Of a DNA stretch of 41,917 nt, positions 3,477 to 20,863 are shown piece after piece. A program made the position numbers and the translations under genes. This DNA is from an uncultured Eudoraea sp. (GTDB taxonomy: Bacteria; Bacteroidota; Bacteroidia; Flavobacteriales; Flavobacteriaceae). Within the stretch, counting starts at the first letter, position 1. The number at the start of each line of letters is the position of its first letter. The stretch spans positions 1 through 41,917 of the forward strand of contig CAMYJF010000022.1 in NCBI GenBank assembly GCA_947258555.1, in the 5' to 3' direction. Below the pieces are notes generated by a model, which made no database searches, was not told where the DNA came from, and saw nothing but the letters and a program-made list of their open reading frames with translations.

Positions 3477-4292
3477 TTATTTTCTGAAGGTTTCAATTGC
3501 TTCTTTGACAGAGCCGTGCTTTTTCAGGAGGGAATTGGCTTCTTCGTAAGACAGGCCTAAACTATCCATCACATAGCGGGTACCGCGGTCTACTAATTTA
3601 TTATTGCTGAGCTGCATGTTTTCCATGCGATTGCCTTTTACCCTGCCGATGCGGATCATCAGGGCCGTCGTGATCATATTCAGCACTAATTTTTGGGATG
3701 TGCCGCTTTTCATTCGCGTACTCCCTGTGACGAATTCCGGACCTACTACGACTTCGATCGGGATTTCTGCGGCTACAGCCAAAGGAGAACCCGGGTTGTT
3801 CGTAATTCCGGCTGTAAGTATACCATTTTCCCGTGCTGCTTTTATCCCCCCTAGTACATAAGGCGTTGTTCCCGAGGCCGCAATGCCTACTACAGTGTCC
3901 AGGTCGGTTATATCATGCGCTTGCAGATCCTTCCAGGCTTGTTCTGTGTCATCTTCGGCAAATTCTACGGCTTTACGGATGGCTCCATCACCTCCGGCGA
4001 TGAGTCCGATCACCCTCTCATGTGGCATCCCAAATGTTGGTGGAATTTCAGAGGCATCTACAACCCCTAGTCTTCCGCTGGTTCCCGCACCGATGTAGAA
4101 AAGTCGACCTCCGTCATAAAAGCGATGCTCTAAACCTTCAACAAGGGAACCTACCTGAGTTAGGACATTTTTTACCGCCGCTGCAATTTTCTGATCTTCC
4201 TTGTTAATGTTGTAGAGTATCTCACTGATCTCCATCTTTTCCAGATTGTCATAAAGGGAAGAAGCTTCGGTGATCTTGATGTATTCAGACAT
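3477..4292 (-). CDS. murQ: N-acetylmuramic acid 6-phosphate etherase MurQ
   Basis: 271 residues from the start at 4292 (MSEYIKITE). A longer frame back to 4355 would overlap the upstream regulator and adds no family sequence. MurQ cleaves the D-lactyl ether of MurNAc-6-P to give GlcNAc-6-P and lactate in the cytoplasm. Family marks: the SIS-domain segment YIGAGTSGRLGVVDASE, whose final Glu corresponds to the catalytic Glu83 of E. coli MurQ; the GIAASGTTPYVLG loop; and GSTRMKSGTSQK near residue 200. It is slightly shorter than the 298-residue E. coli enzyme, mostly at the C-terminus. It lies 4 bp downstream of the DeoR-type gene on the same strand, so the two are probably co-transcribed. With anmK and nagZ nearby this marks peptidoglycan sugar salvage. 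Confidence 0.96.
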   Translation of the reverse strand: MSEYIKITEASSLYDNLEKMEISEILYNINKEDQKIAAAVKNVLTQVGSLVEGLEHRFYDGGRLFYIGAGTSGRLGVVDASEIPPTFGMPHERVIGLIAGGDGAIRKAVEFAEDDTEQAWKDLQAHDITDLDTVVGIAASGTTPYVLGGIKAARENGILTAGITNNPGSPLAVAAEIPIEVVVGPEFVTGSTRMKSGTSQKLVLNMITTALMIRIGRVKGNRMENMQLSNNKLVDRGTRYVMDSLGLSYEEANSLLKKHGSVKEAIETFRK

Positions 4293-4296
4293 AGAT

Positions 4297-5046
4297 CTAA
4301 AGAATTTTAAGTTCCGGGTCCCGAAAAAGATTGAGTCGGTTATGCGAAGGATCAAGCTCTGTGATCATGGTATGGATCGCACTCAGGTCACAGGTTTTAT
4401 AGCGATGATGTGAATTCAATTTTTGCGAGATACACAAAAGTACCGATTTTTTGGAGGCGTTGATGACTGCCTTTTTGATCTGCACTACATCCCAACTTAG
4501 ATCCGTTAGCCCGTGAACCGGGTCTACATAACCGGTCCCAATAAAACTAAAATCGACTTGAATTTCCGAGAACTGACGTGCGGTTTCGAGTCCGATCGTG
4601 ATCTGAGCCTCCGGGTCTATTTTTCCGCCGATAAAAATAGTTTCAATATTGGGTTTAGTCATTAGGATGTGGGCAACCGGGATGCTGAAAGTAAAGCATG
4701 TCAGGGAGACATCAAGCGGGAGCATGCGCGTGAATTCCATGCAGGTCGTTCCCCCGTCAATAAATATAACACTCCCCTCCCGGACAAGTTCTAAAGCCTT
4801 TTGGGCGATGACCATTTTCTCTTCCAACGCAAAGACATTAACATTGCGGGCCACCAGGCTGTTAAAACCCAAGGAAACAGCACCACCGTGTACTTTCCGC
4901 AACTTGCCATCCATATCTAATTCTTTAACATCCCGACGGGCCGTATCGATAGACACATCCAGCGTCTCCGCCAGATCTGCCAATAAGACTCGGTTGTGCA
5001 ATTCCACCTGCTTTAAAATAGCCTCTTTTCGTTCTGCTTTCAGCAT
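4297..5046 (-). CDS. DeoR/GlpR-family transcriptional regulator, probable amino-sugar regulator
   Basis: 249 residues. The first 57 form the DeoR winged helix-turn-helix (ILKQVELHNRVLLADLAETL, recognition helix around DTARRDVKEL, then KVHGGAV). The remainder is the DeoR C-terminal sugar-phosphate sensor, including VIFIDGGTTCMEFTRML near residue 93 and FIGTGYVDPVHGLTD near 169. Family members are usually repressors released by a sugar phosphate. It is transcribed divergently from the NagB-like/PIG-L gene and ahead of murQ, so an amino-sugar phosphate such as GlcN-6-P or MurNAc-6-P is a reasonable effector (inference). Its own promoter may be the -7-like TATCTTTG at 5063-5070 on the minus strand, which would give a leader of about 10 nt. 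Candidate operators lie in the divergent gap. Confidence 0.92.
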   Translation of the reverse strand: MLKAERKEAILKQVELHNRVLLADLAETLDVSIDTARRDVKELDMDGKLRKVHGGAVSLGFNSLVARNVNVFALEEKMVIAQKALELVREGSVIFIDGGTTCMEFTRMLPLDVSLTCFTFSIPVAHILMTKPNIETIFIGGKIDPEAQITIGLETARQFSEIQVDFSFIGTGYVDPVHGLTDLSWDVVQIKKAVINASKKSVLLCISQKLNSHHRYKTCDLSAIHTMITELDPSHNRLNLFRDPELKIL

Positions 5047-5171: not shown

Positions 5172-5180
5172 CTACCTTTG
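5152..5180 (+). promoter_or_regulatory. Bacteroidota-type promoter of the nagB-like/ampG/nagZ/anmK operon
   Basis: TTG at 5152-5154, 18 nt, then TACCTTTG at 5173-5180. This matches the flavobacterial -33/-7 pattern (TTG, about 17-23 nt, TAnnTTTG). The start codon at 5205 would follow a leader of about 18-20 nt. Confidence 0.7.
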
Positions 5181-5204: not shown

Positions 5205-7160
5205 ATGTCAACAATGCTGAAATCACCTGAAATCACACGGATACCCAAGGATGAGGAATCCCGCAAATTTGAAAAGATCAACACTGCAATCTATGGAAGC
5301 TCTGACCAGGCTTCTTTTTTTGTGGCCAATGAGATCGCAGACCTCATAAGAGAACGACAGAAAAAAGGTAAGAATGTAGTCCTCGGACTCGCCACAGGCT
5401 CCACCCCTACCAAGGTTTATGATTTCCTGGTAAAATTCCACGAGGAAGAAGGTCTTTCCTTTAAAAATGTGATCACCTTTAACCTTGATGAATACTATCG
5501 AATGGAACCGGATTCCATCCATAGTTATGTGCGTTTTATGAACGAACACCTTTTTGATCACATCGATATCCCTGAGGAAAATGTCCATATCCCTGATGGG
5601 ACTCTTGAAAAAGACGAGCTGAAAGCCTATTTCGAGGACTATGAAAATAAGATCACTGAAGCAGGTGGCATCGATATCCAGGTCCTGGGGATCGGCCGTA
5701 CCGGACATATTGGGTTTAACGAACCGGGCTCAAGCCTGCGTTCCAAGACTCGGATGGTAAGGCTCGATCAGGTAACCCGACTCGATGCAGCTTCTGATTT
5801 CTTCGGCATAGACAATGTACCTGTTAAGGCGATCACCATGGGTGTAGGCACTATCATGGCCTCTAAACGGATCATCCTGATGGCTTGGGGAGAAGGGAAA
5901 ATGGAGGTGATTCGGGAAGCTGCGGAAGGCACAATTCGTGAATCTATTCCGGCTACCTTCCTTCAACAGCACCCGAAATGTGATTTTATCCTTGACGAAG
6001 CAGCGGCATCCGGACTCACCCGGGTAAGTACACCCTGGTTAGTGAGCGAATGCGAATGGGATGAGGCCCTGATCAAACGGGCAACGCTATGGCTATCTCA
6101 AAAAGTGAATAAGGCCATCCTCAAGCTTACCAATGAAGATTATAACGAACACGGTATGGGGAATCTCATTGCCGAAGTAGGCGCTGCTGAGATCATCAAC
6201 CTCAGCGTCTTTAACCAACTACAGCGCACCATCACAGGATGGCCAGGTGGAAAACCCAACGCAGATGATAGTCAGCGTCCGGAACGGGCAGAACCTTATC
6301 CAAAGCGTTCCCTGATCTTTAGTCCGCACCCTGATGACGATGTGATCTCTATGGGCGGCACCTTACTCCGACTCGTAGACCAGGGGCATGAAGTACATGT
6401 CGCCTACCAAACCTCGGGTAATATTGCTGTCTTTGATGACGAAGTGATCCGCTTTCTGGACTTCGCCACGGACACCATGCAGGGGAATAAAGAACTGATC
6501 GCCCAGCGACAACGCGTGCGTACTTTTTTAACGAATAAAAAACCCGGACAGGTAGATTCACCTGAGATCCAGGAGTTTAAAGGCTTGATCCGTAAAGGCG
6601 AAGCCCTGGCGGCTTGTCGCTATTGTGGAGTGAATGAAGACAATGCGCATTTCATGAACCTGCCCTTCTATGAAACCGGGAAGGTGAAAAAGAACCCACC
6701 TACCCAGGCCGATGTGCAGATCGTTTATGATCTCCTTCAAAAAGTAAAACCACACCAAATATATGCTGCAGGCGACTTGTCCGATCCACACGGCACACAC
6801 AGGGTCTGCCTCCAGGTGATCTACCACGCACTAGACCAATTGGTACGGGAAAAAGCAGAATGGCTGGATGATTGTTGGGTATGGCTCTACAGAGGTGCCT
6901 GGCAGGAATGGGAGGTTTCCGATATGGATATGGCCGTAGTTATCGGGCCAAAAGATCTGGACCGGAAAAAGAATGCAATTTTCAAACACCAGAGTCAGAA
7001 AGACAGCGCTATGTTCCCCGGTCATGATGACCGTGAGTTCTGGCAGCGGGCAGAACAGCGGAACATGCATACGGCAGAAAAGATGAACCAGTTAGGACTG
7101 GCAGAATACGAAGCGGTGGAAGGATTTGTGCGCTATCATTATAAAAACGAGTCGCGCTAA
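5205..7160 (+). CDS. NagB-like (glucosamine-6-phosphate deaminase family) / PIG-L deacetylase fusion protein
   Basis: 651 residues in two domains. Residues about 28-275 follow the glucosamine-6-P deaminase fold: GLATGSTP (61-68), FNLDEY with D95 (equivalent to E. coli Asp72), GHIGFNEP with H168 and E173 (His143, Glu148). The residue at the position of catalytic Asp141 is Thr166 (GRTGH, against GNDGH in E. coli). Residues about 365-645 form a PIG-L/LmbE zinc deacetylase: HPDDD (375-379) and DPHGTHR (527-533) supply the usual metal ligands. The same architecture is known in Bacteroides (the NagB-like protein BT_0258, from memory). It is the first gene of the rightward salvage operon. One option is a combined deacetylase/deaminase for GlcNAc-6-P; another is that the NagB half is only a sugar-phosphate-binding module. 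Fold assignment is firm, activity is not. Confidence 0.9.
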   Translation: MSTMLKSPEITRIPKDEESRKFEKINTAIYGSSDQASFFVANEIADLIRERQKKGKNVVLGLATGSTPTKVYDFLVKFHEEEGLSFKNVITFNLDEYYRMEPDSIHSYVRFMNEHLFDHIDIPEENVHIPDGTLEKDELKAYFEDYENKITEAGGIDIQVLGIGRTGHIGFNEPGSSLRSKTRMVRLDQVTRLDAASDFFGIDNVPVKAITMGVGTIMASKRIILMAWGEGKMEVIREAAEGTIRESIPATFLQQHPKCDFILDEAAASGLTRVSTPWLVSECEWDEALIKRATLWLSQKVNKAILKLTNEDYNEHGMGNLIAEVGAAEIINLSVFNQLQRTITGWPGGKPNADDSQRPERAEPYPKRSLIFSPHPDDDVISMGGTLLRLVDQGHEVHVAYQTSGNIAVFDDEVIRFLDFATDTMQGNKELIAQRQRVRTFLTNKKPGQVDSPEIQEFKGLIRKGEALAACRYCGVNEDNAHFMNLPFYETGKVKKNPPTQADVQIVYDLLQKVKPHQIYAAGDLSDPHGTHRVCLQVIYHALDQLVREKAEWLDDCWVWLYRGAWQEWEVSDMDMAVVIGPKDLDRKKNAIFKHQSQKDSAMFPGHDDREFWQRAEQRNMHTAEKMNQLGLAEYEAVEGFVRYHYKNESR

Positions 7161-7204: not shown

Positions 7205-8479
7205 ATGGTAGAAAAGAACAAACGGGCCTGGGCCTGGATCCCACTCCTTTACTTTACACAAGGATTCCCTTTTGTCATGGTGGTGGTTGTATCCGTCATC
7301 ATGTACAAAAAACTCGGGATCTCCAATGCCGATATCGGACTGTATACGAGCTGGCTCTATCTCCCATGGGTAATCAAGCCACTATGGAGTCCGTATGTAG
7401 ACCTGATCTCCACTAAGCGAAATTGGTTTCTGTGGATGCAGCTGATGGTTTCTGTTGCCTTCCTGGCCATTGGATTTTTCCTGCCGACTAACCTCTTTTT
7501 TGTAACGACACTCGCCTGTTTCTGGATGGCGGCCTTTGCTTCAGCGACGAATGATGTGGCCTCAGATGGCTACTATATGATCGGGCTTACCCAGGACAAG
7601 CAAAGCTTTTTTGTAGGGATCAGAAGTACCTTCTATAAACTGGCCAATGTTACAGGACAGGGCCTGTTAGTCATCCTGGCCGGCTTTTTGGAAAACGAGT
7701 TTGGCGACAATGCCAAAGCCTGGTCCTATACCATGATCGTTACCGGTATACTAATGTTGGCCTTGACAATAGGTAATTTCTTTGTAACACCTAAATACGA
7801 ATCTTCCGAAGCCATAACCCTGGAGAAGCCGAAAGGATTTCTTGAAGTTTTCAGGACATTCTTTAACAAGAAAGGTATGGGCATTGCCCTGGCTTTTGTG
7901 CTCTTTTTCCGCCTGGGGGAATCGCAATTGGTCAAGATGGCTGCGCCCTTTTTTCTGGACCCTGTCGAGAAAGGGGGACTTGGGTATACGACAGCTGAAG
8001 TAGGAACGATCTATGGGACTATCGGGGTCATCTTTTTGACGATCGGTGGTATATTAGGCGGAATCCTGATCTCGCGTGACGGTCTCAAAAAATGGCTGTT
8101 CCCTATGGTGCTTTCGCTCAATATTCCAAATGCATTTTATGCCTTCCTGGCGATTACAAATACCACCCATATTGTACCCGTAGTTACAACCGTTATCCTG
8201 GAGCAATTTGGCTATGGTTTCGGCATCGCCGGCTTTATGGTCTATTTGATCTATATAGCTGAAGGGGCATCCAAAACCTCCCACTACGCCCTGGCGACTG
8301 GCTTTATGGCCTTGGGAATGATGCTCCCCGGATTGATCAGCGGCTTTATGCAGGAATGGCTTGGCTATGACGGATTCTTTATCTGGGTGGTCATCGGAGC
8401 GCTTCCCGCTTTGTTTATTTTGAAGTATCTTGACTATCCGCCAGAATACGGAAAAAAAGGCGCCGGCAATGATACCTGA
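7205..8479 (+). CDS. MFS permease, AmpG-like (probable muropeptide importer)
   Basis: 424 residues with about 12 hydrophobic segments and no signal peptide. It has the AmpG-type MFS layout: WAWIPLLYFTQGFPFVMV at the first helix, LPWVIKPLWSPYVDLI near residue 55, and a central SATNDVASDGYYM segment resembling the FCSASQD region of AmpG. Transport is presumably proton-coupled across the inner membrane. Its position between the amino-sugar gene and NagZ/AnmK indicates import of GlcNAc-anhydroMurNAc or its peptides (inference). Family alone would also allow other anions. It follows the previous gene by 44 bp. The first ATG at 7197 encodes only four residues before a stop, so 7205 is the start. 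Its stop overlaps the nagZ start by 11 bp. Confidence 0.82.
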   Translation: MVEKNKRAWAWIPLLYFTQGFPFVMVVVVSVIMYKKLGISNADIGLYTSWLYLPWVIKPLWSPYVDLISTKRNWFLWMQLMVSVAFLAIGFFLPTNLFFVTTLACFWMAAFASATNDVASDGYYMIGLTQDKQSFFVGIRSTFYKLANVTGQGLLVILAGFLENEFGDNAKAWSYTMIVTGILMLALTIGNFFVTPKYESSEAITLEKPKGFLEVFRTFFNKKGMGIALAFVLFFRLGESQLVKMAAPFFLDPVEKGGLGYTTAEVGTIYGTIGVIFLTIGGILGGILISRDGLKKWLFPMVLSLNIPNAFYAFLAITNTTHIVPVVTTVILEQFGYGFGIAGFMVYLIYIAEGASKTSHYALATGFMALGMMLPGLISGFMQEWLGYDGFFIWVVIGALPALFILKYLDYPPEYGKKGAGNDT

Positions 8480-10112
8480 GTGGACAGTAGTTAACGAAGC
8501 ATACGATACCCTTTCACCCAAAGAACGGATCGGGCAATTCTTTATGCCCGCAGCCTTTATAAATGATACGGAAGAAGATGTGCAGGCCATGGAAGCTTTG
8601 ATACGTGAACATGGCATTGGCGGCCTCTGTTTCTTTCACTCCAAAGCCTCTGCAGCTACAAATTATGAAGGTCCTAAAGAGGTCGTCTACAATGAAAAAA
8701 GCAGGCAACGCCTTCAGGAGCTTATTGAGCGTTACCAGGCCGCTTCAGAAATTCCTCTTTTGATCGCTATTGATGCCGAATGGGGTTTGGCGATGCGGGT
8801 AGAGGAAACAGATCAATTCCCATATGCCCTTACCCTTGGCGCGGCAAAAGACAAGCAATTGATCACCCAGGTAGGTCAGACTATTGCCCGTGACCTTCGG
8901 AAAACAGGCATCCATTGGAATTTTGCCCCTGTGGTAGATATGAATGTTCAGCCTGAAAATCCGGTGATTGGCTATCGCTCCTTTGGAGAAGATGCCCATG
9001 CGGTCACAGAGAATGCCCGTGCATTTATCAAAGGCATGAAAGCTGAAGGCGTCTTGCATGCCATTAAACATTTTCCGGGCCATGGTAATACCAAAGTAGA
9101 CTCCCATCTTGGACTCCCGGTGTTAGAAGACAATAAAGAAACCTTGTTGCAAACAGACATTTTTCCTTTTGTAGAATTGATAAAAGAAGGGGTAGATGCC
9201 GTCATGGTAGGACACCTGGCCGTGCCTGCACTTACAGATGGAACCATAGAATCGGCTTCCCTCTCCCCTACTATCATCAAGGGTTTTCTGAGAGGAGAAC
9301 TGGGCTTTGATGGTGTTGTGGTGACGGATGCCATGAACATGCATGCCATATCACAGGATTATGACAAACCAGGCGAGCTGGAGTTGGCTGCGTTTACGGC
9401 AGGAAATGATGTGCTTTGTTATTGCCCTAACCCAGTGGCCGGGATACAGGCTATTTTTGAAAATGCCTCAGCGGGGGATATTAAAACCGCTTTTTATCGC
9501 ATCTGGGCCTTAAAACAAAAAGCGTTTCAGGAGCCAAAAAAATCCCCTCAGTATTTACCTGAGGCTGTGAATCTGAATAGCTGTCTGGCTAAATCTTGCA
9601 TTACGCTCTACTGTGGCGAACCGGATGGCATAGCACATTTTGTGAAGCAAGGATTTGCGATCGTAGAATGCGGTTCCGGGGCTCAGGCCGATTCGGGAGT
9701 TGTCGTTGATAGTTCATCGTTGATAGTTCCTGGTCAAAGCTTTTCAGACCGGATCAAGGATCAGTTTGGTGTAACCGATTTTAAAACAGTCACCCAAACG
9801 ACTGATGAAATTCGGGAAGGACTGGAAGAGCAGGAAAATATCCTATTAGTGCTGCGACCCCCGCAGGTGAAACCGCAGTATCAATTTGGCTTAAACCAGG
9901 AAGAGTTAAAGCTGATCCGGGAATTGTATGCGGAAAAACAATTGGTCATATATCATTTTGGGAACCCGTATATGATACGGGCTTTAGGCTTATTCAATAC
10001 ACTGGCAACCGTAATGTTGTACCAGGACTTCCCGGAATTCCATGAAGTAGCATTTCAGCATTTCATGGGCGAAGTAACGGCAAAGGGCAAATTACCCGTC
10101 TCACTGGCATGA
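8469..10112 (+). CDS. nagZ: Glycoside hydrolase family 3, NagZ-type beta-N-acetylglucosaminidase (cytoplasmic)
   Basis: 547 residues from the ATG at 8469, which overlaps the permease stop (coupled translation). An in-frame start at 8430 lies inside the permease gene and adds nothing conserved. The catalytic (beta/alpha)8 domain spans about residues 10-350 and carries the NagZ signature KHFPGHG-x4-D-S-H (200-213), whose Asp-His pair is the acid/base, plus the nucleophile D287 in VVVTDAMNMH. There is no signal peptide, as expected for the enzyme that removes GlcNAc from anhydroMurNAc products in the cytoplasm. Residues about 370-547 form a second GH3-C-like domain that short proteobacterial NagZ lacks. 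Residues 413-422 are encoded by four 7-nt repeat units (see 9705-9732). The stop overlaps anmK by 4 bp. Confidence 0.9.
   Translation: MIPEWTVVNEAYDTLSPKERIGQFFMPAAFINDTEEDVQAMEALIREHGIGGLCFFHSKASAATNYEGPKEVVYNEKSRQRLQELIERYQAASEIPLLIAIDAEWGLAMRVEETDQFPYALTLGAAKDKQLITQVGQTIARDLRKTGIHWNFAPVVDMNVQPENPVIGYRSFGEDAHAVTENARAFIKGMKAEGVLHAIKHFPGHGNTKVDSHLGLPVLEDNKETLLQTDIFPFVELIKEGVDAVMVGHLAVPALTDGTIESASLSPTIIKGFLRGELGFDGVVVTDAMNMHAISQDYDKPGELELAAFTAGNDVLCYCPNPVAGIQAIFENASAGDIKTAFYRIWALKQKAFQEPKKSPQYLPEAVNLNSCLAKSCITLYCGEPDGIAHFVKQGFAIVECGSGAQADSGVVVDSSSLIVPGQSFSDRIKDQFGVTDFKTVTQTTDEIREGLEEQENILLVLRPPQVKPQYQFGLNQEELKLIRELYAEKQLVIYHFGNPYMIRALGLFNTLATVMLYQDFPEFHEVAFQHFMGEVTAKGKLPVSLA
9705..9732 (+). 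repeat. Heptanucleotide array inside nagZ (4 units, 28 bp)
   Basis: Four consecutive 7-mers, GTTGATA, GTTCATC, GTTGATA and GTTCCTG, exactly 28 bp. A partial unit GTTGTC precedes them (9699-9704). They match intergenic arrays such as the one starting at 17519. The reading frame passes through so that the TGA and TAG triplets inside the units are out of phase, encoding residues 413-422 in the C-terminal domain. Confidence 0.75.
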
Positions 10113-11203
10113 AAAAAGAAGAATACAATGTATTAGGAATGATGTCCGGGACTTCTTTGGATGGCCTGGACATGGCTTATTGCAGATTCTGGCAGGAAGA
10201 GGGGCAATGGAAATATGAAATTAAAAAAGCCACGACCATCCCCTACTCAGATGAGCAAAAAAATAAGTTGACTACCGCCATTACCTTTGATCCGATGGAT
10301 CTGTTTAAAATGCACCACCGTTATGGAGAATGGTTAGGTAAGACAGCAAAAGAATTCATGGATAAACACAAATTGAAGGTTGACTTTATCTCCTCGCACG
10401 GACATACCATTCATCACAGGCCTGAGGAAGGCTATACGTTCCAGGCGGGCGATGGGGCCGAGTTAGCCAAGCACAGCGGTCAGACCGTGATCTGTGATTA
10501 TCGGACCGAGGATGTGAAGCATGGTGGACAAGGGGCACCACTCGTTCCCATAGGCGACAGACTTTTATTAAGCGAATATGATTACTGCCTGAACCTTGGT
10601 GGAATTTCTAATATTTCCTTTGAGAAAGACGGAAAACGGATCGCCTATGACATAGGGATCGCCAATATGTTATTAAACCCCCTGGCGCAAAAAGCAGGCC
10701 AGCACTATGACCACAATGGCGACCTCGCCCGGCAAGGAAGCCTCAATGAGGGCCTTTACGAAGCGCTGAACAATCTTGAATACTATAGTCTCCCCTGGCC
10801 GAAATCCACAGGCTATGAATGGTTTGCCAAGGAGATATGGCCCCTCGTTGAATCCTATGACGACAGCCCCGAAAACCTGCTCCGCACAGCCGTCCACCAC
10901 ATTGCCGAGCAGATCGCCAATGCAGTTCATAGCACCTTAGGAGGAATCCAAGAACTACGAACTAAGAACTACGAACTACTGTCCTCCGGCGGCGGGGCAA
11001 AAAACTCCTTCCTGATGGAAGTACTTCAAGAAAAGCTCGGGTCTGGAGTCCATGTACATATCCCGGATGGCAAGCTCATCGACTACAAAGAAGCTTTGGT
11101 CTTTGCCTTAATGGGAGTCTTAAAAATGGAGGGGGGAGTGAATGTGTTGAGTTCTGTGACAGGGGGAGTGAAAGACTTGTGTTCTGGTAAAGAATTTATC
11201 TAA
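10109..11203 (+). CDS. anmK: Anhydro-N-acetylmuramic acid kinase AnmK
   Basis: 364 residues, close to the 369 of E. coli AnmK. It opens with GMMSGTSLDGLD (residues 11-22), the phosphate-binding strand-turn of the family. SSHGHTIHHRP (about 94-104), GGQGAPLVPIGD (about 138-149) and LNLGGISNIS (about 156-165) follow. AnmK opens the 1,6-anhydro ring and phosphorylates to yield MurNAc-6-P, the substrate of MurQ, so the cluster contains consecutive steps. The start overlaps the nagZ stop (ATGA). Codons 282-290 come from a 7-nt repeat array just before the conserved SSGGGAKNSFLM loop. Near the 3' end the coding DNA is G-rich and slightly repetitive. Confidence 0.95.
   Translation: MKKEEYNVLGMMSGTSLDGLDMAYCRFWQEEGQWKYEIKKATTIPYSDEQKNKLTTAITFDPMDLFKMHHRYGEWLGKTAKEFMDKHKLKVDFISSHGHTIHHRPEEGYTFQAGDGAELAKHSGQTVICDYRTEDVKHGGQGAPLVPIGDRLLLSEYDYCLNLGGISNISFEKDGKRIAYDIGIANMLLNPLAQKAGQHYDHNGDLARQGSLNEGLYEALNNLEYYSLPWPKSTGYEWFAKEIWPLVESYDDSPENLLRTAVHHIAEQIANAVHSTLGGIQELRTKNYELLSSGGGAKNSFLMEVLQEKLGSGVHVHIPDGKLIDYKEALVFALMGVLKMEGGVNVLSSVTGGVKDLCSGKEFI
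10952..10979 (-). repeat. Heptanucleotide array inside anmK (4 units, 28 bp)
   Basis: Plus-strand units are GAACTAC, GAACTAA, GAACTAC, GAACTAC, exactly 28 bp, the complement orientation of the GTT-type arrays. They are translated as part of residues 282-291 (ELRTKNYELL), where AnmK homologues have a loop or short strand before the Gly-rich GGG-x-x-N motif. The same units fill the intergenic arrays near 17702 and 21146. Confidence 0.75.
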
Positions 11204-12560: not shown

Positions 12561-14112
12561 ATGGCCCTGATTACTTTCTTATTGTTTACCGGATTTGTTG
12601 CCTTTTATGCGACATGGAAGCTGCGAAGGGATAAACTGAACACCCAAGATGGTTATTTCCTTGGGGGCAGGTCGCTTACCGGAATCGTTATTGCCGGATC
12701 CCTTTTGTTGAAGAAATGGGGCTATCATTATTGCCTGGGAAGTAACTTCGGCATTGGCGCTGGTGGTAGCAGCCTTGTATTTCGCACCGCGCTACCTAAA
12801 AATGGGACTCACAACTATACCTGAGTTTCTGGAAAAACGTTTTGACGGGCTAACCCGTACATTGGTGGCTTTTTTGCTGATTATTTCATTTGTTGCCACT
12901 TTACTGCCAATAGTTCTTTATACAGGTGCTCTTAATATAGAGGCTATTTTCAATATTTCGAGCGTCCTGAATGTTAGTCAGAAAGATGGGATTGGGATCA
13001 CTATTCTTGTAGTGGGTGTCATTGGTGCTGTGTACGCCATTTTTGGAGGTTTGAAGATGGTGGCCTATACAGATACGATCAATGGTTTTGGCTTGCTGGT
13101 TGCCGGTCTGTTAGTGCCGATCCTGGCTTTACTGAGTATTGGTCAGGGTGATGTTTTGGATGGTTTGGGAAAAGTATTTGAGAATAGTCCTGAGAAGTTT
13201 AATATCATAAGCAGGGAATCTGGCATTGGTGCCGGTTCAAGGTCGGCCATTCTGCCCTTTGAAGTATTGTTTACCGGCTTGATGATCAATCAGATTTACT
13301 TTTGGGCCATGCACCAATCTATTATTCAACGAGTGCTGGGTGCAGTGAATCTGAAAGAAGCCCAAAAAGGCTTGCTGTATACCGGTTTGTTAAAGATATT
13401 GGTTCCTTTGATCATTGTTTTACCAGGGCTAATCGGCTTCTATTATTTTGGGGATAGCCTTTATGACAACCCGGACAATGTATATCCCCTTCTGGTAAAA
13501 AAAGTTCTTCCACTATGGCTTACTGGCTTTTTCGTGGCCGTCATGATGGGGGCTATCTTAAGCACTTTTAACAGCGCTTTGAACAGCGCTGCAACGGTTT
13601 TTAGTCTGGATATTTTTAAGCGATATATAAAAAGGAACACCAATGAAAAAAGCCTGGTTCTTATCGGCAAATTGACGTCCGCCATCCTTGCCATTTTTGC
13701 CATTAGTATTGCACCCTATGTGGCCAATGCCCCTGAAGGTCTTTACCAGCTTTTGCAGCAGTTGAATGGGATCTTTTTTGTGCCCATTGCGAGTGTCATT
13801 ATTGCGGGCTTTCTATTCCCCAGAGTTTCTGCTGGAGGAGCTAAAATTGGCTTGCTCTTCGGATTGCTTTTCTATATCATTACGTATTATGTCTTAGCGT
13901 TAGAATTACACTTTGTCCATATATGGGGCATTGAATTTGTGCTCAACATTTTGGTAATGCATCTTGCTTCTGCCTTATTGCCAAAGGATAAACCATTTGT
14001 CATGAAAGATTCAGGCATTTTGGATCTTACGCCGTGGAAATTTGCAAAGGCTTTTAGTGCTTTTTTGGTGGCGTTTACCATTATTTTGTACCTTTTCTTA
14101 GGCAATGTGTAA
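12561..14112 (+). pseudogene. Sodium/solute symporter (SSS/SLC5 family), disrupted by internal deletion and frameshift
   Basis: The first frame (from 12561) encodes a normal SSS N-terminus with DGYFLGGRSLTGIVIAGSLLL, then runs into unrelated sequence. The family sequence resumes at about 12715 in another frame (NGAIIIAWEVTSALALVVAALYF) and continues to 14112 with about ten further membrane helices. The expected segment after SLLL (typically TNLSTEQ and the following helix, about 17 residues) is missing. The frame change requires a loss of 2 modulo 3, for example 50 or 53 bp, with a junction near 12709-12714. The lost stretch includes part of the unwound first helix that binds sodium and sugar in SSS transporters, so the product should be inactive. 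It ends 2 bp before the myo-inositol oxygenase gene, which suggests it was an inositol transporter. Confidence 0.85.
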
Positions 14113-14114
14113 TT

Positions 14115-14924
14115 ATGGAGAAGACTTTTAGAAACTACGACCCTTTGGATGTTACCTCGGCCGTTAGGGAACACTACCGTAAAATGCGGCAACATCAGAC
14201 CCTGGATTATGTGCGCGGCATGCACAAAAAGTATTTGACCTTTGATAAACCTATGCCACTTTGGGAGGCTATGGAACATCTGAATAGCCTGATTGATGTG
14301 AGCGACCCTGATTTGGACCTTCCAAATGTTCAGCATCTTATCCAAAGTGCAGAGGCCATACGTGAGGATAACAGGCCGGATTGGATGCAGCTAACCGGGC
14401 TCATCCACGATTTGGGAAAGGTCATGTATTTATGGGGTAGTGATGAGGATGGTACGAGCCAGGCAGAACAATGGGGAATGGTTGGTGATGTATTTGTGGT
14501 AGGCTGTGCCCTCCCTGATACTTGTGTTTATCCGGAATTCAATACGCTGAACCCTGATATGAAGGATAAGCGCTACAATACGCCATCGGGCATTTATGAG
14601 GAAGGTTGTGGCCTGGATAAGTTGAACCTTGCGTGGGGACATGATGAATATTTATACCAAGTGCTGGAGAACCATAAGGAAAATAAGCTACCGGAAGAGG
14701 CCATGACCATGATACGATACCACTCCTTTTATCCATGGCATACCGGAGGAAGTTATACGGAATTGCTCAACGAAAAAGACCAGGACTATTTGGAAATCAT
14801 ACGCGACTTTAATCGGTATGATCTTTATACTAAGAGCAATACCATTTACGATCTGGAAGCTATCAAAGATTACTACCAACCTATTGCTGAGAAATACCTG
14901 GGCAATGGCCCGATATATTGGTAA
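14115..14924 (+). CDS. myo-Inositol oxygenase (MIOX)
   Basis: 269 residues, near the 285 of mammalian MIOX. The enzyme oxidises myo-inositol to D-glucuronate with a mixed-valent di-iron centre in an HD-domain fold. All six iron ligands can be placed: H74, H98-D99 (LIHDLGKV), H176 (WGHDEYLYQ), H203 (YHSFYPWHTGG) and D236 (RYDLYTK). It lies directly behind the broken SSS symporter, so the pair probably formed an inositol uptake and oxidation unit. No uronate-pathway genes (uxaC, uxuA, kduI) are in the window. The gene looks intact, which suggests the transporter was lost recently or that substrate arrives by another route. Confidence 0.95.
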   Translation: MEKTFRNYDPLDVTSAVREHYRKMRQHQTLDYVRGMHKKYLTFDKPMPLWEAMEHLNSLIDVSDPDLDLPNVQHLIQSAEAIREDNRPDWMQLTGLIHDLGKVMYLWGSDEDGTSQAEQWGMVGDVFVVGCALPDTCVYPEFNTLNPDMKDKRYNTPSGIYEEGCGLDKLNLAWGHDEYLYQVLENHKENKLPEEAMTMIRYHSFYPWHTGGSYTELLNEKDQDYLEIIRDFNRYDLYTKSNTIYDLEAIKDYYQPIAEKYLGNGPIYW

Positions 14925-19238: not shown

Positions 19239-20012
19239 CTAATTATATGGGATCGCCTCTAAAATATGCTTGATCGATCCGAGTCGCGCTGTGGATTTTT
19301 TATTCGCATCAATGATGACCCAGGGCGCATCTTTGGTGTTTGTCTGCTCAAACATGCGGTCTTTAAAGGCGGTATATTCATCCCACAATTCCTGGGCCTT
19401 TTCATCCAGTGGGGTCATTTTCCAGCGTTTTAGTGGATCCTCTTTTATATTGATAAATCGCCTGGCTTGTTCTTCTTTAGTGATAGACAAATAGAATTTG
19501 ATCAGGTAGGTATCACTCTGAATGAGCATCTTCTCAAAGCTGTTCACTTGCTCCATAAAAACCTGATACTCCTCTTTGGTGCAAAACTGATTTACAGGCT
19601 CAACCACAGCCCGGTTGTACCAGCTTCTGTCGAAAAAGACGATCTCCCCAGGCTTAGGAAGCTCATTAATATATCGCTGGAAAAACCATTGCTTTCGTTC
19701 ATCTTCTGTTGGAATATTCAAGGCCACGATCGTCAAATGCCTTGGGTTGATATATTCTGTAATACGGCGTATGGCACCTCCTTTTCCGGCAGCATCGCGC
19801 CCTTCGAAAAGTACAACGACTTTCTTATCGTTCTTGATCACCCAGTTTTGCAACTTGATCAATTCTTCCTGATGCTTTTTCAGTTCCGTCTCATAAGCCG
19901 TCTCCTCAAGTGCATTCGAGAGATTTACCTTTTTACTGCTCAAGAGAGAATACAAGCCCAATTTGGAATTCAATAGGACTACCTCTTCTTCACTTAATAG
20001 CTTCTTCTCCAT
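19239..20012 (-). CDS. Polyphosphate kinase 2 (PPK2) family protein, copy A
   Basis: 257 residues, single-domain PPK2. Walker A GRDAAGKGG (71-79), the lid-associated RYINELPKPGEIVFFDRSWYNR with Walker B Asp128 (DRSWYNR, 128-134), and the PLKRWKMTPLD region near residue 195 are typical. PPK2 enzymes transfer phosphate between polyphosphate and nucleoside mono- or diphosphates in the cytoplasm. Single-domain forms usually use NDPs or NMPs, and the preference cannot be read here with confidence. It lies 2 bp downstream of a second, divergent PPK2 gene (20015-20863) and upstream of the CPBP gene. Confidence 0.93.
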   Translation of the reverse strand: MEKKLLSEEEVVLLNSKLGLYSLLSSKKVNLSNALEETAYETELKKHQEELIKLQNWVIKNDKKVVVLFEGRDAAGKGGAIRRITEYINPRHLTIVALNIPTEDERKQWFFQRYINELPKPGEIVFFDRSWYNRAVVEPVNQFCTKEEYQVFMEQVNSFEKMLIQSDTYLIKFYLSITKEEQARRFINIKEDPLKRWKMTPLDEKAQELWDEYTAFKDRMFEQTNTKDAPWVIIDANKKSTARLGSIKHILEAIPYN

Positions 20013-20014
20013 AG

Positions 20015-20863
20015 CTATATATCTATTTGGACGGCAGAACGGTAATACCTGAGTATAACGTTAGGGTCGGGCAGTAAAGCGATTCCCGAATTTCCCTTGC
20101 CTTCATATTCAAATTGCGAGAGTACATAACGCATGCTTTCAATGCGAGCTTCTCGTTTGTTGTTGGTTTTGACGATCATCCATGGACTGAATGTCGTATG
20201 CGTCTTACTGAACATCTGTTCCTTGTAATATGTATACTTATCCCAGAGCTCTTGCCCTTTCATATCTACCGGACTGAACTTCCACCTTTTAAGTGGATTT
20301 TTAAGTCGCGCATCAAAACGTTTTTTCTGTTCTTCCTTGGAGATGGAGAACCAGAATTTGATGACTTTTACATTGTCTTCGTAAAGCAAATGTTCAAATT
20401 CGGGCACCTGCACCATAAATTTGTGGTATTGTGCATCATTACAAAAGCCCATGACCGGTTCTACTACAGCCCGGTTATACCAACTACGGTCGAAAAAAAC
20501 GATCTCACCTGGATTAGGCAAAACCTTGATATACCGCCTGAAATACCATTGACCCCGCTCTACTTCCGTAGGCTTGGTCAAAGCCACAACTTGTGAAGAA
20601 CGAGGATTTAAATGCTCTTTAAAACGCTTAATAGAGCCCCCTTTCCCGGAGGCATCCCTTCCTTCAAAAATTATGGCCACCCTGAGATTATGCTTGGCTA
20701 CGTGATTCTGAAGACTAACCAGTTCGCTTTGAAGTCGCCTCAGTTCCACTTCATATTTTAACTTGGATAAAACCCGATTGATATCAATGCCTTCACGTTT
20801 AGCAATCTTGATCAACTCCTTGCGGGTCTTGGCTTCCAGTAAATGATCGGATGTATACGTCAT
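20015..20863 (-). CDS. Polyphosphate kinase 2 (PPK2) family protein, copy B
   Basis: 282 residues, first gene of the leftward ppk2-ppk2-CPBP group. Walker A GRDASGKGG (68-76) and DRSWYNR (125-131) are intact. The C-terminus is about 30 residues longer than in copy A and ends GIALLPDPNVILRYYRS, a tail seen in some PPK2 class I proteins. The two copies differ clearly outside the motifs, so this is an old duplication, and they may differ in substrate (ADP against AMP or GDP). Upstream are TATTTTTG at 20928-20921 and a TGA-N6-TCA palindrome at 20951-20964. Confidence 0.93.
   Translation of the reverse strand: MTYTSDHLLEAKTRKELIKIAKREGIDINRVLSKLKYEVELRRLQSELVSLQNHVAKHNLRVAIIFEGRDASGKGGSIKRFKEHLNPRSSQVVALTKPTEVERGQWYFRRYIKVLPNPGEIVFFDRSWYNRAVVEPVMGFCNDAQYHKFMVQVPEFEHLLYEDNVKVIKFWFSISKEEQKKRFDARLKNPLKRWKFSPVDMKGQELWDKYTYYKEQMFSKTHTTFSPWMIVKTNNKREARIESMRYVLSQFEYEGKGNSGIALLPDPNVILRYYRSAVQIDI

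Follow-up and report, generated by a model that had tools for sequence, protein, structure and literature searches.

Closest Described Systems

Proteins that join a NagB domain to a PIG-L/LmbE domain are catalogued as NF002557/PRK02122, "glucosamine-6-phosphate deaminase-like protein", and the record names the deaminase-like part only. A member of this family is encoded at positions 5205..7160 (+) of a 41,917-nucleotide stretch of DNA, here called the window, from an uncultured Eudoraea sp. of the Flavobacteriaceae (contig CAMYJF010000022.1 of assembly GCA_947258555.1). The family and the window protein have the two-domain architecture in common over their full length, and structurally there is no difference between them. 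An earlier note on this DNA had regarded the fusion as a possible new arrangement of amino-sugar catabolism. As an architecture it is not new, and the gene called nagB in the chitin locus of Flavobacterium johnsoniae also appears, from the available text on that locus, to belong to the family. We propose, with a probability of about 0.65, that the window protein is a bifunctional enzyme, predicted from its sequence to deacetylate N-acetylglucosamine-6-phosphate (GlcNAc-6-P) and to deaminate glucosamine-6-phosphate (GlcN-6-P), thus taking over the step of NagA as well as performing that of NagB. NagA itself (TIGR00221) is an amidohydrolase and would have the same reaction and place in the pathway, while belonging to an unrelated family.

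For the N-terminal half the best match, both in structure and among PDB sequences, is the monomeric NagB of Bacillus subtilis (2bkv/2bkx). It shares the GR-x-GH motif and a residue other than Asp at position 141 with the fusion, but it has no PIG-L domain, carries Asn instead of Thr at this position and keeps Arg in the Arg172 column. The C-terminal half has its fold and the HXDD+H metal motif in common with the LmbE/PIG-L deacetylases BshB, diacetylchitobiose deacetylase and MshB. As far as they are described in the available text, these differ from the window protein in not being fused to NagB and in acting on GlcNAc conjugates or chitobiose. According to the available part of a review of the LmbE-like enzymes, the substrates of those characterised have a GlcNAc core; this part does not mention NagB or glucosamine-6-phosphate, and GlcNAc-6-P is a substrate class not named in it (PMC4101496).

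In the chitin utilization locus (ChiUL) of F. johnsoniae described by Larsbrink et al., Fjoh_4557 was called NagB and could not be expressed, while Fjoh_3974 was predicted to be the NagA of this organism (PMC5127042). The failed expression is repeated in a second paper (PMC7426924). The corresponding locus of F. johnsoniae CI04 (L242) has the order SusC-SusD-fusion-GH20-GH18, where GH stands for glycoside hydrolase family. Since this matches the published ChiUL gene order, though as read in another strain, Fjoh_4557 is very likely a NagB-PIG-L fusion. It differs from the window's gene in lying in a chitin locus, and its organism has further copies of the fusion as well as a predicted NagA. Bacteroides thetaiotaomicron BT0258 is mentioned as an entry in an expression table in the available text of PMC10434189. 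No functional study of the fusion family, or of the fusion as a deacetylase, was found in the open-licence literature; the family is already catalogued, and the role proposed here was not found in print there.

The Fusion Protein

The open reading frame (ORF) starts with ATG and encodes 651 amino acids. In an NCBIfam scan the product is a full-length member of NF002557 (residues 14-646, 1046.8 bits against a cut-off of 384), and it also exceeds the cut-off of TIGR00502 (nagB; 254.5 against 236.9 bits). Pfam recognises Glucosamine_iso (PF01182) at residues 35-255 (79.4 bits) and PIG-L (PF02585) at residues 370-542 (70 bits, cut-off 28.2). TIGR00221 is not among the nine NCBIfam families that match, and the protein, judged from its sequence, may work like NagA, yet is no member of the NagA family. 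An AlphaFold2 model made from 61 sequences of the fusion family has a mean predicted local distance difference test score (pLDDT) of 90.8 and a predicted template modelling score (pTM) of 0.85. It aligns with NagB structures (2bkv/1dea/1ne7) over residues ~25-277 and with LmbE-type deacetylases over ~366-651. The NagB domain thereby corresponds to positions 5277..6035 (+) and the deacetylase domain to 6300..7157 (+). The two are separated by a largely helical linker (residues ~278-365, 6036..6299 (+)), most of which lies outside the structural alignments. By VIA-align, B. subtilis NagB (2bkv_B) superimposes on model residues 25-272 with Z 37.5 and 1.1 Å over 242 residues, whereas the C-terminal part gives Z 22.0 and 2.4 Å over 208 residues with BshB (6p2t) and Z 21.2 and 2.9 Å over 227 residues with diacetylchitobiose deacetylase (8bgo). 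The fusion is therefore real, as the earlier note had it, in ORF, Pfam domains, NF002557 score and model alike. That 140 homologous copies align with near-invariant active-site columns shows that it is no chance ORF, and it is best described as ordinary and well conserved for its family, which is known, widespread and, it appears, uncharacterised.

Residue conservation was counted in 221 aligned members. These comprise 141 sequences from 105 genomes (140 fetched loci, taken among the matches listed, and the window's own) and 80 named loci, the best 80 of at least 592. Eight of the 140 fetched frames contain one or two stops, which were read as X, and one locus (L271) was retained although its match length is not divisible by three. 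In the following, the E. coli numbering and the roles of Asp72, His143, Glu148 and Lys208 are those that we take to hold for E. coli NagB. The equivalents of these residues in the window are D95 (5487..5489 (+)), H168 (5706..5708 (+)), E173 (5721..5723 (+)) and K232, and they are conserved in 219, 219, 221 and 221 of the 221 members. In the second domain, HPDDD (residues 375-379, 6327..6341 (+)) provides H375, D377 and D378, found in 221, 217 and 221 members. DPHGTHR (residues 527-533, 6783..6803 (+)) provides the third metal ligand, H532 (219 of 221). In the HXDD+H motif the residues corresponding to H375 and D378 are metal ligands and that corresponding to D377 is the general base, according to the available text of the review (PMC4101496). 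Apart from K232, these residues and motifs had been given correctly in the earlier note, including T166 within GRTGH, and its statement that the metal ligands of the second domain are complete is borne out.

The same note regarded T166 (5700..5702 (+)) as a missing catalytic Asp, and as an alternative it raised the possibility of a NagB half that serves as a sensor or a binding platform. This applies an E. coli-type yardstick: hexameric NagB of that type has Asp at position 141, where the fusion has Thr. The position is Thr in 155, Asn in 45, Ser in 19 and Val in two of the 221 members, and never Asp; among the 141 sequences from 105 genomes the counts are 91, 32, 16 and two. B. subtilis NagB reads GRNGH, with Asn at the same position, and according to the available text it is an active monomer with a K_M of 0.13 mM (PMC9812318). 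Thr166 is therefore normal for a NagB of this kind, and a lack of Asp141 does not exclude a protein from the NagB enzymes at large; the idea of a dead site was rejected. A non-catalytic NagB half, with only the PIG-L half at work, is accordingly very improbable. Apart from the absent Asp, the loss of the Arg172 column and two sequences without the Asp72 and His143 equivalents (see below) would fit it, while the conservation of all four other active-site residues, the activity of B. subtilis NagB with Asn and the close fit of the model to that enzyme speak against it.

NagA in Genomes With and Without the Fusion

The source genome assembly (2.73 Mb in 104 contigs, 95.25% complete) was searched for NagA in three ways. 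TIGR00221 had no match over its cut-off (best 32.5 bits) and none at 1e-25, and a profile built from 15 NagA-like sequences of the phylum had none at 1e-15. No stand-alone NagB over the cut-off was found either. The earlier note held that canonical nagA and nagB would tell against a bifunctional fusion; neither was found, but there is a second gene of the NagB superfamily (L005:1417-2133), located beside oxidoreductase-type genes. It is galactosamine-6-phosphate isomerase-like, with 248.3 bits on a 194-amino-acid piece against a cut-off of 271. As this was its best score, an assignment as 6-phosphogluconolactonase was rejected.

Among 296 sampled genomes of the phylum, the fusion exceeds the NF002557 cut-off in 121. 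NagA is found at E<=1e-25 in 50, of which 42 are over the curated TIGR00221 cut-off; six of the eight matches below it were read, and all scored best as NagA. TIGR00502 matches at 1e-40 in 149 genomes and MurQ is present in 211. The fusion and NagA occur together in 29 genomes, the fusion alone in 92, NagA alone in 21 and neither in 154. Of the 26 families in which the fusion occurs, 24 are represented among the 92, and the 15-sequence profile at 1e-15 detected no NagA in any of these 92 genomes, while ten of ten control genomes outside the profile building matched at 3.6e-98 or better. The same profile was also run, without a positive control, on 58 of the 70 MurQ genomes that have neither gene. 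The tendency for fusion genomes to be without canonical NagA, which the earlier note had proposed as a check, is thus borne out. MurQ is found in 120 of the 121 fusion genomes, compared to 91 of the 175 without the fusion.

A profile made from the C-terminal part of the fusion was run on all 28 genomes that match TIGR00502 yet lack the fusion. Fifteen of them have a longer PIG-L-like protein and one (G219) has adjacent frames. When these 16 are added to the 121, NagA is found in 37 of 137 NagB genomes with a PIG-L partner, compared to 11 of 12 without one (Fisher p 1.5e-5). If only NagA over the cut-off is counted, the figures are 29 of 137 and 11 of 12 (p 1.6e-6); both p values are too small, because the genomes are related. 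In a tree of the 141 fusion sequences NagA status changes 25 times, while 500 shuffles gave a mean of 38.4 and a lowest value of 33. The 68 sequences around the window do not form a clade, their common ancestor being that of the whole tree, while the other 73 do. Seven of the 68 come from genomes with NagA, compared to 38 of the 73.

The distribution of NagA also bears on the possibility that the NagB half does deaminate GlcN-6-P while the PIG-L half deacetylates another GlcNAc compound, such as chitobiose, MurNAc (N-acetylmuramic acid) or a derivative of N-acetylgalactosamine (GalNAc), and is no substitute for NagA. The 29 genomes that combine NagA with an intact PIG-L half are compatible with this, as are the two or three fusion copies found in some genomes and the diacetylchitobiose deacetylases among the Foldseek/VIA neighbours of the PIG-L part. 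Such a division is nevertheless rather unlikely, as MurQ in the window's own cluster delivers GlcNAc-6-P in a genome where NagA was not found, and as NagA is far more frequent in NagB genomes without a PIG-L partner than in those with one.

Natural Variants and Other Couplings

Two fusion proteins from one genus (G230 and G238) have a strongly altered NagB half. They read FNMYEYY or FNLYEYY together with GRVGN, so that the equivalent of Asp72 has become Tyr and that of His143 Asn. The phosphate loop is changed to LALPGGNSP and LALTGGTSP, compared to LGLATGSTP, with Gly and Pro retained. Of 59 near-invariant NagB columns, G230 has lost 11 and G238 ten, while no other sequence has lost more than three. 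Of 64 near-invariant PIG-L columns each has lost four, compared to up to eight in another sequence, and their PIG-L motifs are unimpaired. In each genome a canonical NagB is encoded separately, and searches for NagA found none (TIGR00221 at 1e-25; 15-sequence profile at 1e-15). From the sequences, this is the pattern expected if deacetylation is the task of the PIG-L half and deamination that of NagB.

The mirror case is the loss of the PIG-L general base (D377A) in second copies of the fusion in G108, G119, G171 and G203, each of which has another, intact copy. These four of the 221 sequences could be taken to mean that the fusion is a deaminase only and that, in the source genome, an unrecognised enzyme performs the deacetylation, the PIG-L half being a relic or structural. 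The F. johnsoniae gene is likewise discussed as a NagB only, with NagA predicted separately, in the available text (PMC5127042). This reading is very improbable indeed, since the near-complete retention of the three metal ligands, described above, would not be expected of a relic.

The C-terminal profile of the fusion was run on 77 genomes without the fusion, the 28 above among them, and 23 of these have a protein of ~590-810 codons that matches it. In the four that were read (L213-L216), a NagB part with GPDGHIxFNV, thus with Asp at position 141 and Val at position 148, is joined to HHDD...THYK; for the others a NagB half is presumed from the length of the frame. The proteins read score 210-229 bits against NF002557, which is below its cut-off, and Pfam PIG-L misses the two that were scanned. 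Judged by coordinates, a longer protein lies ~1.8 kb from MurQ in two genomes (G132, G236) and ~6 kb from it in five (G035, G074, G082, G176, G224), and adjoins NagB in G120. Another locus (L045) holds a further longer, divergent protein of this NagB-PIG-L-like kind, likewise under the NF002557 cut-off. In G219 (L212), NagB and a fusion-type PIG-L are encoded in adjacent or overlapping frames on the same strand, which represents a split pair or else a fusion broken by a frameshift.

The Recycling Operon and Other Gene Contexts

The fusion gene heads an operon, as described in the earlier note. The start of a gene for an AmpG-like muropeptide transporter of the major facilitator superfamily (7205..8479 (+); TIGR00901 177.8 bits, under the cut-off of 350) lies 44 bases downstream. 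It is followed by genes for a NagZ-like beta-N-acetylhexosaminidase of family GH3 (8430..10112 (+); Pfam Glyco_hydro_3 250 bits, NF003740 171.9 bits, under the cut-off of 207) and for the anhydro-MurNAc kinase AnmK (10109..11203 (+); NF007144 491.1 bits, cut-off 436), each overlapping the preceding gene. The genes on the upstream side run divergently and encode a DeoR-family regulator (4297..5046 (-)), recognised in NCBIfam and Pfam scans, and the N-acetylmuramic acid 6-phosphate etherase MurQ (3477..4355 (-); NF003915 360.6 bits, cut-off 168). The anhydro-MurNAc branch of peptidoglycan recycling ends in GlcNAc-6-P, which is delivered by MurQ. In front of the fusion gene, TACCTTTG at 5173..5180 (+) is a putative -7 promoter element, proposed by its likeness to what we take to be the Bacteroidetes consensus, TAnnTTTG.

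The nearest named relatives of the window's fusion, among the best 80 of at least 592 loci, are from Maribacter, Robiginitalea, Muriicola and Lentiprolixibacter (77-79% identity), and the loci of these genera (L217, L218, L219, L233) also have the full recycling cluster. The four genes MurQ, AmpG, AnmK and NagZ all lie at most 6 kb from the fusion in these named loci and in three of the 140 (G130, G234, G182). One or more of the four come this close in 22 of the 140, where ~1.2% would be expected by chance (a rough estimate), and in 13 of the 80 named loci. GH20 or GH18 genes are found within 6 kb in 27 of the 140 and 12 of the 80 loci, and GH20 accounts for six of the 46 close co-directional neighbours in 59 diverse fusion loci. 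More than half of the fusion loci have neither the recycling nor the GH20/GH18 context. The fusion is also found in nine records labelled Planctomycetota/Phycisphaerales and relatives (L244, L260, L263, L264, L269, L271, L274, L277, L285), and the family is therefore not confined to Bacteroidota.

Elsewhere in the window, a sodium/solute symporter adjoins a protein of the myo-inositol oxygenase family (12754-14924), possibly as an inositol cluster. Two adjacent, similar ORFs at 19239-20863 are, by eye, presumably PPK2-type polyphosphate kinases.

Proposed Pathway and Its Significance

The earlier note suggested that one polypeptide deacetylates GlcNAc-6-P and then acts on the product. As both motifs are intact, the gene lies in a recycling operon and NagA was not found, deacetylation followed by deamination in one protein stands as the best reading, although not without contrary evidence. 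AmpG would import peptidoglycan fragments, from which NagZ would release anhydro-MurNAc. AnmK would convert this to MurNAc-6-P, and MurQ would convert the latter to GlcNAc-6-P. The C-terminal PIG-L domain, with H375, D378 and H532 holding the metal and D377 as the base, would then deacetylate GlcNAc-6-P, after which the N-terminal NagB domain would turn the resulting GlcN-6-P into fructose-6-phosphate and ammonia. The two activities and GlcNAc-6-P as the substrate of the PIG-L domain are predictions, and the product might pass directly between the two sites and the DeoR-type regulator might control expression. Where the protein sits in chitin loci, as it does in other lineages, it would process chitin-derived GlcNAc-6-P likewise.

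Several observations weigh against this proposal. Chief among them are the 29 fusion genomes that also have a NagA-like gene while mostly keeping the PIG-L ligands, as the PIG-L half should be redundant beside NagA if it were limited to the NagA step. In two cases NagA immediately precedes the fusion in the same orientation, 32 bases away in G068 (L075) and 85 bases away in Flavobacterium segetis (L254), so that both types of deacetylase can share an operon. The NagA status shifts some 25 times along a fusion tree of related genomes. The 70 of 211 MurQ genomes with neither fusion nor NagA imply that MurQ by itself demands neither. A divergent NagA could be missed, as the ten controls of the 15-sequence profile were already TIGR00221-positive and as the control B. 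subtilis, which presumably has a NagA, had no TIGR00221 match at 1e-25. G230 and G238 belong to one genus and so amount to a single event; moreover, the equivalents of Glu148 and Lys208 and some of the phosphate loop persist in them. The Arg172 column, presumably a phosphate contact in E. coli NagB, is not conserved in the fusion family: the window has Ser197, and 110 of the 221 members have Ser and 30 Arg. No LmbE enzyme acting on GlcNAc-6-P was found in the available text of the review (PMC4101496). Deletion of Fjoh_4557 did not affect growth on chitin, in an organism with three other nagB-like genes (PMC5127042, available text).

The comparative pattern, which is drawn from sequences, nevertheless marks the fusion out as a good candidate for a single protein that does the work of both NagA and NagB. 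In many related bacteria it probably replaces the usual separate deacetylase in the recycling of sugars from the cell wall or from chitin. For the phylum as a whole, we lean slightly towards the view that NagA has in much of it been replaced and not lost. An LmbE/PIG-L-type GlcNAc-6-P deacetylase would have been coupled to NagB at least twice, in the PRK02122 form and in the longer, divergent form encoded near MurQ or NagB, and one further time as neighbouring genes, with one protein leading from GlcNAc-6-P to fructose-6-phosphate and perhaps passing GlcN-6-P between its sites. Pathway annotation that considers NagA only would label such genomes incomplete. If true, the proposal would add a phosphosugar to the known substrates of LmbE/PIG-L enzymes and give a family with at least 592 loci a function beyond "deaminase-like". 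It would also close a gap in the GlcNAc-6-P catabolism of many NagA-less Bacteroidota and their relatives, in peptidoglycan recycling as well as in the use of chitin.

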